A program made the translations under genes and the position numbers. The notes under the pieces are model-generated. The model worked only from the letters and a program-made list of their open reading frames with translations, did no database searches and had not been told where the DNA came from. Below are positions 48,652 to 61,726 of a stretch of 64,000 nt of DNA, one piece after another. The stretch comes from Planctomycetales bacterium 10988 (GTDB taxonomy: Bacteria > Planctomycetota > Planctomycetia > Pirellulales > Pb10988). The number at the start of each line of letters is the position of its first letter. Positions within the stretch are counted from its first letter, which is position 1. The stretch lies in the NCBI GenBank assembly GCA_009664345.1, contig CP043547.1, forward strand, positions 62,001 through 126,000, given 5' to 3'.

Positions 48652-49000
48652 GGTTTCTTTGAATCCCTTCTTGAGATTTTCCGGTTCTTCAACAGGATCA
48701 CTCGGCCTGCGGCAACCTAGATTAATAGACGGTTACTGATTGAAATCGTTTAAAGATAAATTCCCTTTTGCAAAATCTTGTTAGTGCTGCGAGCTTTTAC
48801 TTCGCTCTATCGCCTTGGTTTGGGGAGTGACAAAAACTCGCCAGCGGAGGTTTTCGCGACTCCGAGAAAACGGTATGCTAACGGGCTACACTCATTCTAC
48901 AGTTTTTTCGCATTAGAATGATTCTATCGCCTTGATTTCTATCTTTAGAAGTTGCGGCAAATCGCTACTTTTGAACTACCACACGAGAGGATCACCAGGG
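48652..49000. other. Intergenic region between divergent genes
   Basis: About 350 bp between the TPR gene and the first cyclophilin gene. No repeat or RNA structure was recognised. Confidence 0.35.
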
Positions 49001-50086
49001 ATGACTCGATCTGGATATCATCGGCTAAGGATGTTGCCTTTCTGCCTTTTGCTTTGCGGAGTGCTTCTTCCTAGCGGGGTTTTTGGGCAATCAGCCGCAG
49101 AATTTCCCCAGCTTTATCAACAATGGTCGTCGGCTTTGCAACGAGCCCAAACCATCCAGCAGCAGTTTCGCACGGTTACTCCAGCGGAACAAGCTCAGTT
49201 ACGCACCGAATATCAACAACTCATTCAACAACTCACGCAGCTCGAACCGCAGGTGATTGCCTCCGCCCAAGCTGCCTATCAGGCCAATCCCCAGCAAGCC
49301 GCCCAGGCCGGTATGCTCCTCTTCAATGTTTCCCAGCAAGCGACGGAAATGGGCGATGCGGAGATGGCCGCTAACCTCGTTCAACTTCTGGCAAAAGGCG
49401 GGTTTTCGCATCCCGAGTTTCCGCAACTTCGGGCGAGAATCGCCTTGGCTAGTGGAGATCAACAAGCAGCCCTCGCTGCTTACCGCCAAGTTCAACAACA
49501 ACAAGGTCTCGATTCTGAAGGAAAGAAAGTAATGGAAGAACTAGAGCTTCGCGAAAAAGAAGCCCAAGCCGACGATCTCCCCCGCGTGCTGATGAAAACC
49601 ACCAAAGGGGACATGGTTTTGGAACTTTATGAAAACCAAGCCCCGAACTCCGTGGCCAACTTTGTCAGTCTGGTGGAAAAAGGATATTACGACGGTTTGA
49701 CCTTTCACCGGGTTCTCGATGGCTTCATGGCCCAAGGCGGCGATCCGACCGGAACCGGTGGCGGTGGCCCCGGCTATGCGATTGCCTGTGAATGTTATCG
49801 ACCAGATGCCCGTTTGCATTTACCCGGAACCTTGAGCATGGCCCATGCTGGCAAAGATACCGGAGGAAGCCAGTTCTTTATCACTTTTACCAAAACGGAA
49901 CATCTTGACGGACGCCATACCGCGTTTGGTCGCGTCATCGAAGGGATGGAAGTCCTCGATCAATTGCAACGGATCGATCCTTCGCGACCGAATCCCAATA
50001 TCCAACCGGACAAAATCGTCTCGGCGAAAGTCCTCCGCAAACGCGATCATGCCTATCAACCCAAGACGCTCCCTTCGCGTCGTTAG
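49001..50086 (+). CDS. Exported cyclophilin-type peptidyl-prolyl isomerase (first of two)
   Basis: 361-residue protein. The start at 49001 gives a signal peptide (LPFCLLLCGVLLPSGVFGQS). A Gln/Ala-rich helical region (about 25-170) with TPR-like spacing precedes the cyclophilin domain (about 183-345): [62 protein letters not shown]. The catalytic Arg (FHR), Gln/Gly (MAQGG) and Phe residues are present. Likely a periplasmic folding catalyst. Tandem with a paralogue about 50 bp downstream. Confidence 0.9.
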   Translation: MTRSGYHRLRMLPFCLLLCGVLLPSGVFGQSAAEFPQLYQQWSSALQRAQTIQQQFRTVTPAEQAQLRTEYQQLIQQLTQLEPQVIASAQAAYQANPQQAAQAGMLLFNVSQQATEMGDAEMAANLVQLLAKGGFSHPEFPQLRARIALASGDQQAALAAYRQVQQQQGLDSEGKKVMEELELREKEAQADDLPRVLMKTTKGDMVLELYENQAPNSVANFVSLVEKGYYDGLTFHRVLDGFMAQGGDPTGTGGGGPGYAIACECYRPDARLHLPGTLSMAHAGKDTGGSQFFITFTKTEHLDGRHTAFGRVIEGMEVLDQLQRIDPSRPNPNIQPDKIVSAKVLRKRDHAYQPKTLPSRR

Positions 50087-50137
50087 GGAATCTTCAGTCT
50101 AAACGATTAGAAATCATTATTAGAAGGAACTTTAGCT

Positions 50138-51559
50138 ATGATATTTCAAGGAACCGGAAAATTAGCGGGCCTTGTTGCGGTGGGAATCGGAGTTCTGCTT
50201 TCCTCCTGGAGTCTTTTTGCTCAAGAGGAAAAAGCCGAATCCCAAGATTCCTCCGAGTCGAAACAAGAGAGTCAAGATTCTGCCTCAAGTGAGTTTGACG
50301 AACGACTTGAAGAATGGAAAAGCTTGCTCGTCGATCTGCGTAGTCTTCGCTATCAATATCGCTCCGCGGAAACGGAACGTGAGCAAAACAACCTGCGTGG
50401 CGAATATGAAACGTTGTTGGAAAAAGGGAAAGAGCTTGCGCCGATTCTCCGCAAGGACGCCCTCAAGGCTTACACGGACGCGAAGACCAAAGATCGCGAC
50501 ATCGAGCGTTTTTTGGCATCCGAAGCTCAGTATCATTTTCAAAATGATCAATACGAAACCGCCGCGGAGATCGCCCCGAAACTGGCCGAAGGCGGGTATG
50601 ACAATGCCAATGCCTTCACGCTTGCCGGGGAATCGCTCATCCAAACGAATCAGTACGAGGAAGCCAAACCTTTCCTAGAAAAAGCGAAAGAATATGAAGT
50701 CCTTCGCTCGCAATCGGAAGCCTTTTTGGAGGAATTTGATCGCTACTTGGAACGGTGGCAAGCGGAACTGTCGATTCGTGAAGCGGAAGCGAAAGCGGAC
50801 GACCTTCCTCGCGTGAAGTTTGAAACGACCAAGGGCGATGTCATTATTGAACTTTTTGAGAATGAAGCCCCCAACACAGTCGCCAACTTCATCACTTTGG
50901 TAGAAAGTGGTTTCTATGATGGACTTCCTTTTCATCGGGTTTTGCAAGGCTTTATGGCTCAAGGTGGAGACCCCAATGGCGATGGAACCGGCGGACCGGG
51001 CTATCAAATTCCAAGCGAATGCTTGAAGGAAAATCGTCGCAATCACTTCCGGGGAAGTCTGAGCATGGCCAATGCCGGGCTTGATACCGGGGGATCGCAA
51101 TTCTTTATCTGCTATGTGATTACCGATCACCTCGATGGTCGCCATACGGTTTTCGGTCGCGTGATCGAAGGCTTGGAAAATGCTTCGAAGTTGACCTATA
51201 TCGATCCGAGCAAGGAATCGACTGCTACACCTGATCGAATTTTGAAGGCGGAAGTTCTCCGCAAACGGGAGCACGAATATAAGGTCAACAAAGTCGGCAT
51301 GGAAACCGAAGGACCTGCGGAAGAAGACGCTTCTACCAAGGAGGAAACGGAAGAAGCCTCCGCGGATGCGGAAATGAAAGAGGATGCGGCGAAAGCAGAG
51401 ACTCCGAAAACCGAGGAAGAAAAGAAGTCCGAAGCTACCGAATCGAGTGAAGCATCGGAAAAGAAAGCAGATTCTTCCACAGAAGAAAAGGCAGACAATT
51501 CCGAAGAGAAAGCGGAATCTGAGGAGGATTCTGAGTCGGAAGACTCTGAAACAGAATAA
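50138..51559 (+). CDS. Exported cyclophilin-type isomerase with acidic tail (second of two)
   Basis: 473-residue paralogue of the preceding gene with the same layout: signal peptide (about 1-29), Ser/Glu-rich stretch, helical region (about 50-215), cyclophilin domain (about 223-380: [58 protein letters not shown]). It adds a tail of about 80 residues made almost only of Glu, Ser, Lys, Ala, Asp and Thr. AAGGAAC precedes the ATG. The gap of about 50 bp and shared orientation suggest one transcript and a gene duplication. Confidence 0.9.
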
Positions 51560-51885: not shown

Positions 51886-52290
51886 TTAAAGTTGCGTTTC
51901 CACTTCCGCCAAGGCAGCACGGGTCTTCGTCAGGGCCATCCCGATGTTCGCCGAATTACGGGTGACCGCGACCAAGGCATGATCATGGTATTTTTTCCCG
52001 CGAATAAATACGTGCAACAGGTTGTCGCTCATGACGAGCATTTCATTGAAGTAATGCTTTCCGTCTTCAGCGACACCACGCGACTTACGGAATAACTTTT
52101 CGATGGCTCGCACGTTATCCCCTTGGAACAGATCGGCAGTAGCGGCAGCAACCAAGTCGAGAACTTCTTGCGGATGGGAATCCACGGTTGCAACTCCAAG
52201 CAGCATCCCGGTGGACATATCCACATAACCCGCGGCAACACACTCAGGTACAACTCCGCGCATTTTGGATAGGGCTTGGTCGAGCGACAT
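51886..52290 (-). CDS. Roadblock/LC7-like domain protein
   Basis: 134-residue protein. Pattern matches a single roadblock/LC7 domain: VAAGYVDMSTGMLLGVATVDSHPQEVLDLVAAATADLFQG, then LLHVFIRGKKYHDHALVAVTRNSANIGMALTKTRAAL. In bacteria such domains (MglB and relatives) bind and regulate small Ras-like GTPases or serve as signalling platforms. No GTPase gene is in the window. It follows the ABC/phosphatase operon on the same strand after a 187-bp gap; shared function is an inference from position. Confidence 0.7.
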   Translation of the reverse strand: MSLDQALSKMRGVVPECVAAGYVDMSTGMLLGVATVDSHPQEVLDLVAAATADLFQGDNVRAIEKLFRKSRGVAEDGKHYFNEMLVMSDNLLHVFIRGKKYHDHALVAVTRNSANIGMALTKTRAALAEVETQL

Positions 52291-52477
52291 GGCTTTCTCC
52301 TCTAAATGAGAAAATGGCTTAGATGTGAGAAGGAATTCTCAAAGATAAGAAACATTGATTGGTAAAAAAGCTTTTCCCTCTTAATGGGGGTAGCAATCCC
52401 AATTCAGGCTCCAATATAGAGTGCTTTAGACAAATAAAAAAGGAGTTTCTGAAAAAAAACCAGAAGTTTTGTAAGAT

Positions 52478-53782
52478 TTAAAGAAAACCAGCCTGATTAG
52501 GTTCTCTACAGTACTTTTCAAACTCGCTCAGGAATTCCACTTGGGTATCGGACTGAACCCAACGCGGCTCGATGGAGCGAGCGTGTTCCAATGCGGAGAG
52601 AGCGGAACGCCCTTGATAAATCAAAAAACATGCGAGCATCGTGCCTGTTCTTCCCAAACCTGCTTTGCAATGAAGGGCCACGGTTTTCTGCTCTTCCAGC
52701 CAGCCCGCCAGGCGAATACAAAATTCTTTTGCCGCTTGCAACTCGGGCGCTTCCATGTCAATGATCGGGAAATGATAGGTTTCGATCCCGTATTGTGCAT
52801 AGTGTTCTGAGGAGAGATCGTTCTCGGTGAGATTGACCAAAAACGTGATGCCTACTCGCTGAAGCGCGGAAAGGTCGTAGCCGAGGTCTTGGATAATCCC
52901 TGGTTGTGGTGTGCCTGCCAATCGTCCGGAGATCAACCAATAAAAACCTCGTGGGCCACAGGCTCGGGAGATGGCTTGAATGGCTTCGATGGGGCGAGGC
53001 GGGAGTTCAACGCCTTCGGCTAAGTCCTCGGGTTTCGCATTCAGCGAAGGAAGTTGACAAGAGCCGGTTTTGATAAAAGTTTTCGCCACCTCGCTTTCTG
53101 GTACGGAGAGCAATTTCTCCGTGCAGCCTTCTTCTTGGATCTTTCCGCCAACCAACAAACCCATTCTTCCGCCGAGGGCCTTGGCAATTTGTTGGTGATG
53201 GGTCACTGCCAGGACGGATCGCTTTTGGGCAATAAAGAGTAATTGCTCGACAATGGCATCCTGCTCGGGGGAACTGAGGTCTGCCGTGGGTTCATCCACA
53301 CAAATGACAGCCGACTTCGAGGCATACGTTCGGGCAATCGCAACTTGTCGCTGTTCACATAAACTCAACGAATGAACCGGCGTATCGAGTTGCGGAATCA
53401 ACTTTTCCAGTCCAGCCTGTGCAAGCATCTCCGCGGCAACCGTCTCTTTATCCGAAAGAGAGAGCTTCTCTTGATCAGGCAGGCTAAATAAAACATTCTC
53501 TAAAATAGAAGCAATAAAAAGGCGGGCGTGTTGCTGTACCAATCCTGGTCGAGAACCTTCCTCCAGGGGACCGCCCAAGTACTCACTCTTCCCCCAGCAC
53601 CGAAATTGGGGATTCGCATCATTCAAGCCAGCGATCGAACGGAGCAGAGTAGATTTCCCCGCCCCTGCCGGTCCCATGATCAGAGTGATCCCGGTTGCGG
53701 GAACCTCCAGGTCCACTTCCGCGAGGACCAAGTTTTCCCCGAAGGATGCCCCAAACTTTTGAAGTGAAAGTACAGTATCCAT
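52478..53782 (-). CDS. ABC ATPase fused to a DUSP23-like phosphatase
   Basis: 434-residue fusion. N-terminal ABC domain (about 1-230): Walker A GPAGAGKST (37-45), Q-loop region LVQQHARLF, Walker B VICVDEPTADLS, H-loop VTHHQQ. The signature reads LSLCE where LSGGQ is usual, and the D-loop Asp is Ser. C-terminal dual-specificity phosphatase (about 280-425): LISGRLAGTPQPG, general-acid Asp in IIDMEAP, and the P-loop HCKAGLGRTGT (371-381, catalytic Cys372). The phosphatase resembles eukaryotic DUSP23. No membrane segment. ATG overlaps the upstream gene's stop (TAATG), so the two are translated together; the longer frame back to 53893 is just overlap. Confidence 0.87.
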   Translation of the reverse strand: MDTVLSLQKFGASFGENLVLAEVDLEVPATGITLIMGPAGAGKSTLLRSIAGLNDANPQFRCWGKSEYLGGPLEEGSRPGLVQQHARLFIASILENVLFSLPDQEKLSLSDKETVAAEMLAQAGLEKLIPQLDTPVHSLSLCEQRQVAIARTYASKSAVICVDEPTADLSSPEQDAIVEQLLFIAQKRSVLAVTHHQQIAKALGGRMGLLVGGKIQEEGCTEKLLSVPESEVAKTFIKTGSCQLPSLNAKPEDLAEGVELPPRPIEAIQAISRACGPRGFYWLISGRLAGTPQPGIIQDLGYDLSALQRVGITFLVNLTENDLSSEHYAQYGIETYHFPIIDMEAPELQAAKEFCIRLAGWLEEQKTVALHCKAGLGRTGTMLACFLIYQGRSALSALEHARSIEPRWVQSDTQVEFLSEFEKYCREPNQAGFL

Positions 53783-54630
53783 TAAGCGGTCCCCCGCGAG
53801 ATAGCAAGAAAACCGCTGAGAGCCAGGAGGGCATCTTGACGAGAATAAAACCGAAGCAAAGCCAACCGAACCTCCCCACGGACACAGAACCAAGCGCTAT
53901 CGTCCAAGGTCTTCATCACCATACTCGGCTCAATTCCCGCCTCAACCAAAGAGGCAGGTTCGCACATTTCCCGGGCACTACGACAAATCGGAATCAATTC
54001 ACCGATTCTTGCCCCATCAAACCCGACGCGACGAACAGGGATCGGAAGATGACGACTTTCTTGAGGACGCAAAAGTAACAGACCTGCCGCCAGCTTCGAT
54101 TCCCACGTCTCAAAACAAATTGAAGCCGTATCATCGCGGAACTGATCTTCCGAGAGAGCGGCTTGAAAAAAGAGATCAAAAGGGGAAAAGTTCAAACCCG
54201 TTTCCGAAGCAGGCTCTTGGTGATCGAAAGTAAGAAATTCGGGCCGTTCCCCTTGCAGACTATCGGCGATTTCCGTCATTTGCAGGGCATACCATTGTTG
54301 ATAAACAGCCTTTTTCTGATCGTCATCAAGTAGGTCTTGCGAAAGAATCCAAAGTGAAAAGTTCCCCTCGCCCACAGGGTGAGACGCTTTAAATCGCTCT
54401 AACAGAGAATCGAGATCGGTGACCCCGTGAACTTGCAGAAGTTCCAAAAAGTAGCGATTGGGCGTCGAACTGACGAGAGATTGAATGCTTCCAGCTTGTA
54501 ATCGTAAGGTTCCCTTCGTCAATCCATTCGCACATCGAATGACCACCTGACATGCGGAAGGAGCCTCTTCGATCTGACAAAGCAGCCTGAAGAGAGGATT
54601 TATCGACGATTTCGCTCGAGGTAAGGACAC
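53782..54630 (-). CDS. Uncharacterised protein upstream of the ABC/phosphatase fusion
   Basis: 282-residue soluble protein, first gene of the operon. Residues about 20-110 read KGTLRLQAGSIQSLVSSTPNRYFLELLQVHGVTDLDSLLERF and then a segment like EGNFSLWILSQDLLDDDQKKAVYQQW. These faintly resemble DUF4388/PATAN-type ligand-sensing modules, but I am not confident of the family. The C-terminal half (about 150-280) has no recognised domain. No signal peptide or TM. Stop and next ATG overlap by one base, so it is translationally coupled to the ABC/phosphatase protein. Confidence 0.6.
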   Translation of the reverse strand: MSLPRAKSSINPLFRLLCQIEEAPSACQVVIRCANGLTKGTLRLQAGSIQSLVSSTPNRYFLELLQVHGVTDLDSLLERFKASHPVGEGNFSLWILSQDLLDDDQKKAVYQQWYALQMTEIADSLQGERPEFLTFDHQEPASETGLNFSPFDLFFQAALSEDQFRDDTASICFETWESKLAAGLLLLRPQESRHLPIPVRRVGFDGARIGELIPICRSAREMCEPASLVEAGIEPSMVMKTLDDSAWFCVRGEVRLALLRFYSRQDALLALSGFLAISRGTA

Positions 54631-59809: not shown

Positions 59810-61726
59810 TTACGGAGTAAGGGCCTTTTCGGCTAATTTCTCAATATAAAAAGCCTCGAAATAGGCAGGGCCTTTTTTGACGTCCATTTGGAAAAATTCT
59901 TCATTTTCCCCGTGAATCGCGTTAATTCCGAAGAGTTGTTCCTCGTCGTGCATGATCCACCAAGCCTCTGGCTGCCGAGAGATTTGAACAGAGAAAGGCT
60001 TCTTCTCTTCCGGGTCGCGATCCTTCAACTCCACAGGTTCACAGATAGGCTGAAAGTCGCTCTCTTCCTTTCCACGAAGCCCCGCTTGTAAGGTATTTTG
60101 CTGATAGCGAATCACATACCGGGAGCCTGGATTATCGGCATCCGGACAACCAAAGCAGAGATCGACAAGCCGACAATCTTCGGGATAAATCAAGATCGAT
60201 AGCGTGTAAAACGACCAGTTCGGTAAGGAAATGTTCGCTTTCCCGGCTCCGGAAAGTACAATTCCGCCTTCAGGCCCCATGTTGGTGAACCACTCTCCAG
60301 AAAGAGGCGAAATGCCCGTTAATGACTGTCCATCATACAGCGGTTTTGCTTGCTCCACCTGGGCCAATGTGGGCGGAGGTACGTCTTTGGTCAGGATTTG
60401 CAATGAGGCAGGAATCAAAGGGGCTTGCTCTTCGGGAATCGTCGATGGTTCGATCTGATTCGAAGGAGTGTCCGACAAAGAGCTTCGGGAGATGAAGAAG
60501 AATCCAAGTCCTAGACTAATAAATAGAAGAGTCGCCAGCGAGAAAAGCTGCCAATTGGAAAGTGAAGGCTTTGATTTGAAAAGGAGGGTTTCACCAACGA
60601 TTTCTTGGGTCGGTGTATCCGAATTCAATGGAGCGCCCGGTTTTAAATTCCCCTCTTTCCCCATGTTGAGAATGACTGGGCTTTTCCCCTCCAAAATGTG
60701 GCTTATCCATTGAATCAATTCAGGATAGTCCTGGGGTCGTCTTTCGATCCTCGAAGAGAGCATCGCTTTCAAAAGGTCTTTCGTTGGATCAGTCAATCGA
60801 GGTGCAACTTTTTCCCAATGAGCCAACTTGCCGGAGTCTTTCCCAATCGCAATCTCGGCAAACGAACGTCCATTAAAGGGAGGGAATCCCGAAAGCATCT
60901 GATAGGCGGTTGCTCCGAGGGAATAGATATCGCTTAATTGACCTGATTTCCCTTCCAAGAACTGCTCCGGTGCCATATAGAGCGGGGTTCCCATTACGAC
61001 GCCGCTTTGCGTCAGCGTCAAATCCGACATGACATCTTCAGGGCGAGCAAGTCCGAAATCAGTGATTTTGACGAGACCTTCAAGGTCTGAGGTGGCACTC
61101 TCCGATTGACGAACCAGGATAAGATTACTTGGTTTGATATCGCGATGAATAATCCCTTGTTCGGCTGCGTGAGCGAGCCCGCAAGCGACTTGCCGGACAA
61201 TCGTCCAAGTCAGGGTCTCATCCAATGCCCCTCGCTTTGCCAAAAAATTATCGAGTGGCTCCCCTTCAAGGAGCTCCATAGCAAGATAATATCGAGTCCC
61301 CTGCCGCCCAAAGTCGTAGGCTGCCACAATGTTGGGATGCCGCATCTTCGCGACCATTTTGGCTTCCCGTTCGAAGCGAGCCAAAGCCCCGGCCTGCTGA
61401 AGTCGATGGGCCAAAATCATTTTCAAGGCAACGGGACGGTCGAGCTTCTTTTGCGTAGCTCGATAAACAACGCCCATGCCCCCACGGCCGAGAAGTTCCA
61501 AGATTTCATAGTCGGGAAGCAGAGTCTCGGCTTGGGACATGACATGGATGATATCTTCTCCAAGATAGTCGAGGACGCCTTTTTCCAAAGCTAGCTGAGA
61601 AACCGAAAGCCCGGTGATTTCTGACTCTATGATCAGCTTTTGGGCGGTTTCATCGTCCATCAATCCATAGCGTTTTGCTAACTCGATAAACGTTTTCTCG
61701 TCAATCCCCGACGAAGAGACATTCAT
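59810..61726 (-). CDS. Ser/Thr protein kinase with TM segment and C-terminal ectodomain
   Basis: 638-residue membrane kinase. An N-terminal helical module (about 8-65) precedes the kinase domain (about 73-345): GRGGMGVVYRATQKKL, ALKMI, catalytic loop HRDIKPSN, DFGLARP, TPLYMAPEQF. One transmembrane helix (about 393-415) leads to an extracytoplasmic domain of about 200 residues rich in strands (NMGPEGGIVLSGAGKANISLPNWSFYTLSILIYPED), similar in feel to a LamG/DUF1080-type domain. All kinase catalytic residues are intact. It may sense an envelope ligand. Confidence 0.9.
   Translation of the reverse strand: MNVSSSGIDEKTFIELAKRYGLMDDETAQKLIIESEITGLSVSQLALEKGVLDYLGEDIIHVMSQAETLLPDYEILELLGRGGMGVVYRATQKKLDRPVALKMILAHRLQQAGALARFEREAKMVAKMRHPNIVAAYDFGRQGTRYYLAMELLEGEPLDNFLAKRGALDETLTWTIVRQVACGLAHAAEQGIIHRDIKPSNLILVRQSESATSDLEGLVKITDFGLARPEDVMSDLTLTQSGVVMGTPLYMAPEQFLEGKSGQLSDIYSLGATAYQMLSGFPPFNGRSFAEIAIGKDSGKLAHWEKVAPRLTDPTKDLLKAMLSSRIERRPQDYPELIQWISHILEGKSPVILNMGKEGNLKPGAPLNSDTPTQEIVGETLLFKSKPSLSNWQLFSLATLLFISLGLGFFFISRSSLSDTPSNQIEPSTIPEEQAPLIPASLQILTKDVPPPTLAQVEQAKPLYDGQSLTGISPLSGEWFTNMGPEGGIVLSGAGKANISLPNWSFYTLSILIYPEDCRLVDLCFGCPDADNPGSRYVIRYQQNTLQAGLRGKEESDFQPICEPVELKDRDPEEKKPFSVQISRQPEAWWIMHDEEQLFGINAIHGENEEFFQMDVKKGPAYFEAFYIEKLAEKALTP

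Follow-up and report, generated by a model that had tools for sequence, protein, structure and literature searches.

A locus of Planctomycetales bacterium 10988, in which an ABC ATPase and a dual-specificity phosphatase (DSP) are parts of one protein, raises the question of what such a combination does in the cell and with which partners it works. The locus lies in a window of 64,000 nucleotides, the whole stretch of DNA analysed here, taken from a genome (G000) that consists of a single contig of 6.65 Mb. An earlier note on this DNA had read it as a signalling operon rather than a transporter, with a link to Ser/Thr phosphorylation, and this reading has been strengthened by relatives in which the roadblock-fold protein of the operon (RB) is fused to kinases or lies near them. 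The features concerned are the following:

53782-54630, minus strand: P2, the upstream coupled protein, 282 aa, GTG start; N-terminal part DUF4388-like, judged by relatives
52478-53782, minus strand: ABC-DSP fusion, 434 aa from ATG; ABC ATPase plus DSP
52640-52672, minus strand: DSP catalytic loop HCKAGLGRTGT, residues 371-381
52291-52477, minus strand: gap of 187 bp from the fusion stop codon to the RB start
51886-52290, minus strand: RB, the roadblock-fold protein, 134 aa, downstream of the fusion

The genes of P2 and of the fusion overlap as TAATG, the junction reading CTTAATGGAT, in agreement with the translational coupling first proposed. The mechanical call of the fusion ORF extends to a TTG at 53893, and the fusion orthologues of two other genomes (G176 and G674) were aligned from ATG starts near that of the window protein. 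The 187-bp gap before RB, in which a consensus promoter or terminator site was looked for and none was found, could be the place of RB's own promoter. Reading the ORFs at 49.5-57.5 kb of the window by eye brought no recognisable permease, and no GTPase was seen at 44-64 kb, since the fusion is the sole carrier of a GxxxxGK[ST] P-loop among the ORFs of at least 130 aa there; over these ranges, this is in keeping with the earlier statement that both are absent. As regards the surroundings, positions 48932-51559 of the window hold cyclophilin-type genes, two in tandem, of which the second encodes a long acidic tail rich in Ser and Glu (by eye).

The domain make-up of the fusion is plain from Pfam: an ABC ATPase (residues ~1-240; ABC_tran, 2.9e-17, at residues 21-167) is followed by a linker (~240-275) and a DSP domain (~277-425), for which the best profiles are PF22785 (1.3e-21) and PF22784 (1e-15), with DSPc at 9.2e-11. 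The description of a 434-residue ABC ATPase/phosphatase fusion with an intact HCKAGLGRTGT loop is thus correct, Cys372 and Arg378 being present, and the HCX5R loop together with the preceding Asp (H371, C372, R378 and D342) is kept in both fused orthologues and in a further genome, G163. Within G000, the fusion is the only DSP above the PF22785 cut-off, two weaker matches lying below it. Its DSP domain is a predicted protein phosphatase.

Among 57 genomes (the own one and 56 of the same order), a search with the full-length fusion returned the own copy only at E<=1e-30, and P2 and RB were each found in 1/57 at 0.001. In the phylum, the DSP part is matched in 121 of 392 genomes at 1e-8, two of which, G176 and G163, stand out. 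In G176, P2, the ABC-DSP fusion and RB follow each other as in the window; G674 has a third ABC-DSP fusion, which overlaps RB by 8 bp; and the row of genes at locus 1 of G163 is RB, Ser/Thr kinase, ABC, DSP-RB, RB, kinase. The related loci are placed as follows:

L047 8547-9866 (G176): ABC-DSP orthologue
L077 7897-9216: ABC-DSP orthologue
L049 10808-12409: split form, ABC and DSP as adjacent genes

Since the fusion recurs in G176 and G674, and ABC and DSP are adjacent genes in G163, an assembly error in one strain, which the earlier note had named as a finding that would refute it, is ruled out as its source. Obvious contamination has also been rejected for the G176 contig (GC.66 vs.65), whose tetranucleotide correlation is.79 with one further stretch of G176,.69 with another and.61 with G674; the 15 other family members searched are without RB, so that contamination is still conceivable. 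The same contig contains, at L047 119-571, a repeated AVVGRDSLLKYT in an ORF translation, which looks like a CRISPR-type direct repeat. Farther afield, the ABC part only was matched at 11 loci in a search of genome contigs with the fusion and at six loci in viral contigs with the fusion profile, and the annotation was mostly ABC transporter ATPases among the 25 matches listed of 2931 plasmid records.

RB adjoins ABC/DSP in 4/4 genomes found to have that pair (G000, G176, G674 and G163), while P2 lies beside ABC-DSP in G000 and G176 only and was not found near it in G674 and G163; of the two neighbours suspected of travelling with the fusion, the roadblock gene does so throughout and the upstream gene in 2/4. 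Stand-alone planctomycete DSPs (PF22785/PF22784) have the same catalytic domain as the fusion but a different context: on profile search, 0/47 other DSP loci had ABC, RB or P2 in the flanking DNA retrieved (about 1.5-2 kb per side, less at contig ends, with the DSP re-found in 47/47). These control loci comprised 27 from the phylum DSP search and 20 more, mostly with long ORFs, and 83 of the 133 DSP places counted in that search lie outside the control. Moreover, the four ABC-linked DSPs stand on one side of a 99/99 branch and 26 other DSPs on the other, in a tree that gave long-branch warnings, in which the own row was shortened and from which L037 was left out (stop codon). The linkage of ABC and DSP may therefore have one origin. 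The conserved gene neighbourhood with RB in 4/4 may represent co-retention, not four independent gains. Other DSP fusions occur in the phylum at L096 121-2499, L105 1707-2471 and L106 2082-2816, the partners being a phosphotransferase-like part and an N-terminal part resembling the C-terminal domain of ribosomal L7/L12 (by eye).

The downstream gene had been called roadblock/LC7-like, which is supported by the fold of the predicted model and not by the sequence family, as 0/9 RB members match the Robl_LC7 profile at E<=10. Pfam has no profile that detects the family: the matches of the nine members belong to four families, one member each (E 0.056 to 0.11), including Intu_longin_3 and MAPKK1_Int, which we take to be longin/roadblock-like families; the RB profile gave nothing convincing against PDB sequences. 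The model, built from three sequences, has a mean pLDDT of 78 and the order H-E-E-H-H-E-E-E-H. Its best Foldseek matches in the PDB are MglB and roadblock/LC7 domains, with E from 4.2e-7 upwards, and in VIA-align it reaches Z 12.7 with MP1-p14 and 12.6 with MglB. As modelled, RB has the roadblock/LC7 alpha-beta-beta-alpha-beta-beta-beta-alpha fold. MP1-p14 (LAMTOR3/LAMTOR2) is a scaffold of eukaryotic MAP kinase signalling, and a kinase scaffold role is proposed for RB as well, although the likeness is one of predicted fold, not of sequence, and the function of RB is putative.

The connection between RB and kinases is most direct in G163. At locus 2 of this genome (L061 5507-7174), a 555-aa Ser/Thr kinase (Pkinase 1.2e-54 at residues 129-377) carries a C-terminal RB, recognised with E 1.1e-45 by a profile built without that sequence, and at locus 1 the Ser/Thr kinase gene, at L049 9198-10799, stops 8 bp short of ABC, in the run RB-kinase-ABC-DSP/RB, where RB forms the C-terminal domain of the DSP protein itself (1.5e-24 in tblastn, window RB as query). 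In G454 and G672, the gene just upstream of RB likewise encodes a kinase, and in G674 there is one on the same strand some 2 kb upstream. With G091 excluded, 5/8 planctomycete RB loci thus have a kinase as fusion partner, as neighbour or at ~2 kb on the same strand (G163 twice, G454, G672 and G674), and none was seen at G000, G176 and G445; since a single family (f118) comprises G454, G672 and G674, the kinase neighbours of these three may not be independent. Against such a link, no Hanks-type kinase motif was found in the G000 operon, nor along the whole G176 contig of 15 kb, which has an ABC1/UbiB-like ORF (by eye) at L047 5235-7064, and profile comparison of the C-terminal extension of a G163 kinase with RB and P2 gave no relation. 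At L080 7548-11617 and L079 3-4182, RB belongs to a divergent subfamily and its gene immediately follows that of a Ser/Thr kinase.

These neighbourhoods have to be read against the abundance of kinases, with 82 Pkinase matches in G000, 61 in G445, 108 in G454, 59 in G672, 30 in G176, at least 124 in G674 (124 of 171 first-look candidates scored) and at least 126 in G163 (124 of 640 first-look candidates scored). Because kinases are so common in G163, bare adjacency is weak evidence there, an adjacent kinase not being rare by chance, and the weight rests on the fusion and the tight gene run. The two kinases of the window, which had been cited in support of the signalling hypothesis, lose that value for the same genome-wide abundance in G000, and the nearer one (59810-61726) is about 5 kb from the operon and outside it, with + strand ORFs between. 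Three kinds of fusion have nevertheless been observed, ABC-DSP, DSP-RB and kinase-RB, by which kinase, RB, DSP and ABC are chained together.

The ABC domain adds a further clue. Walker A, with Lys43 in the window protein, Walker B with its Glu and the H-loop are kept in the four ABC-linked genomes, and the LSGGQ signature, which completes the ATP site across the ABC dimer, is lost in all four (LSLCE, LEPAE, LPLGL and LPLGT). The loss is not unique, since among the control ABC rows SGGQ is present in 8/11 and the signature is degenerate in 3/11. Given this loss, the ABC domain can be read as a nucleotide-binding switch, not a strong ATPase, and such a switch would fit better than a transport motor.

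The position of P2 is less clear. The earlier note had sensed a faint DUF4388 likeness, which was right but indirect, because the match is seen in relatives only: the window protein itself had no Pfam match even at E<=10, and weak matches were given by the G176 orthologue and two G000 paralogues, the E-values of these three relatives being 8.7e-5, 3.5e-4 and 7.6e-3 and their scores 16.7, 21 and 23 bits, all below the curated cut-off of 25. A model from the single sequence had a pLDDT of 34.8, too low to judge the fold, and the P2 profile showed no relation to RB. A Ser/Thr kinase gene follows one of the two G000 paralogues after 50 bp, and the second has no kinase adjoining.

Taken together, we give an even chance to the reading that the operon is a cytosolic reversible-phosphorylation module built around a roadblock platform. 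RB would form a roadblock-type dimer on which a Ser/Thr kinase and the DSP would dock and which might also be their substrate, the DSP taking the phosphate off; Thr35/Ser38 in the conserved TVDSHP loop of RB are a guess at the sites. The ABC domain would bind ATP, and its dimerising or not would set the position or the activity of the phosphatase, while P2 might add a further input. The data show the domain make-up, the predicted fold of RB, the kept gene neighbourhood and the three kinds of fusion; dimerisation, ATP gating, the platform or substrate role of RB, the direction of signalling and the role of P2 are putative. PknB/PstP is a bacterial Hanks-type kinase and phosphatase pair, and kinase and phosphatase genes lie near each other in G163 too; the phosphatase here differs, being of the cysteine-based DSP type and linked to an ABC ATPase, and RB is a common fusion partner. 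The parts belong to known families, and neither their combination nor a described operon with this layout was met in the titles and abstract beginnings covered by our literature search.

Some planctomycetes hold very many Hanks-type kinases, 525 being reported for Ca. Uabimicrobium amorphum (PMC11032199); the main text of that paper does not use the word roadblock. The fusions described here point to partners of such kinases, namely a phosphatase, a roadblock protein and a domain that binds nucleotides, which makes one circuit directly testable. If the reading is true, bacterial roadblock proteins would gain a role without the need of a small GTPase.

That need is at the centre of the strongest alternative, according to which RB acts like MglB in regulating or localising a small GTPase or a dynamin whose gene is unlinked, a GTPase switch that the ABC-DSP would tune. 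The best Foldseek matches of RB include MglB, the GAP of MglA, and RB matches were found in five Ruegeria plasmids, in two of which, inspected at L059 and L060 4742-18242, RB stands among four dynamin-family genes. One of these dynamin-family proteins, run against Pfam, gave Dynamin_N at 5.6e-14, and two dynamins of L059 weakly match LeoA/LeoBC models. The planctomycete loci differ from MglA/MglB and other roadblock/LC7 systems, despite the predicted fold of RB: eight planctomycete stretches scanned contain no GTPase-like P-loop ORF of at least 130 aa, the P-loop matches there coming from the ABC domains, from a pair of AAA-type proteins and from one chance ORF, and RB is without a Robl_LC7 profile match and is fused to DSP or kinase in G163. 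We consider the GTPase reading unlikely, an unlinked partner being conceivable.

The Ruegeria clusters also resemble those of planctomycetes, as with the kinase-phosphatase neighbourhood of G163, in having an RB homologue (43% and 39% identity to P0003) with kinase and phosphatase genes in reach: in the run from RB, a kinase follows about 5 kb on, then an FHA gene, and an annotated PP2C about 8 kb on. They differ in the dynamin-family genes and in having no ABC-DSP annotated. In G454, the gene after RB holds a calcineurin-like phosphoesterase domain at its end (PF12850 1.7e-18), its G672 counterpart being cut by the contig end and giving no Pfam match. The DSP, calcineurin-like and PP2C contexts thus place RB near phosphatases or phosphoesterases of three unrelated kinds, a pattern that is no more than suggestive.

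The distribution of RB bears on a second alternative, an accessory conflict or mobile module, with phages also using RB against host signalling. RB is sporadic: its profile matches 4/392 phylum genomes (including a contig-end fragment of G091, otherwise left out of the counts) and 5/347 class genomes, G000 being counted in both sets, as well as 1/6 in the class of G163, 1/16 in the family of G176 and 3/102 in the order of G674; these sets overlap, and RB occurs in 8 genomes altogether. Beyond the own order, RB was the sole query used in the class, where ABC-DSP lacking RB may thus exist, and other phyla were covered through plasmids, viruses and one contig scan. Furthermore, RB is 68% identical between G000 and G176, which is outside the class of G000, and it is found in two viral contigs, with a vWA-domain gene about 10 bp after it in L058 (7995-9080) and divergent from a portal gene in L082 (5791-6399). 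In these two contigs and in G445, RB has no kinase or DSP nearby, which counts against the phosphorylation module. Viral RB is possibly a phage accessory gene acting on host signalling. No RB was found in GenBank phage records and no P2 in plasmids, and against the conflict reading, P2 and RB match no PADLOC model, the kinase and ABC matches there looking generic; we regard it as distinctly unlikely.

The phosphorylation module might be extended to a wider scheme, which we hold only tentatively and think doubtful as a whole: the roadblock dimer would be a shared phosphorylation platform, bound or carried by Hanks-type kinases and, on its other side, by an ABC-phosphatase loaded with ATP, the nucleotide state would decide on dephosphorylation, phages would divert the circuit with their own copies of the platform, and the whole would be an undescribed kind of bacterial signalling, analogous to the roadblock scaffolds of eukaryotic kinase pathways.

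Further, the DSP might act on a small phosphorylated molecule, not a protein, the ABC or RB being substrate or location modules. The DSP superfamily includes lipid and inositol phosphatases, and Pfam gives a weak PTPlike_phytase match and a PTP-NADK match in the fusion; the fusions and the neighbourhood involving kinases and RB argue against this, and we see only a slim chance for a small substrate. Finally, that the ABC domain is an ordinary transport ATPase with a distant permease, on a transporter regulated by the DSP, is very improbable, since its nearest curated family is indeed PstB (E 4e-35) but with 121 bits, far under the 343-bit cut-off, no permease was recognised by eye among the ORFs beside the four ABC/DSP pairs, and LSGGQ is lost in each of them. 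In Endomicrobium, two loci (L001 and L002 6001-7538) have two ABC matches in tandem, PstB-like by eye, and the aligned ABC copy in each has a degenerate signature (LTLEQ / LTLER).
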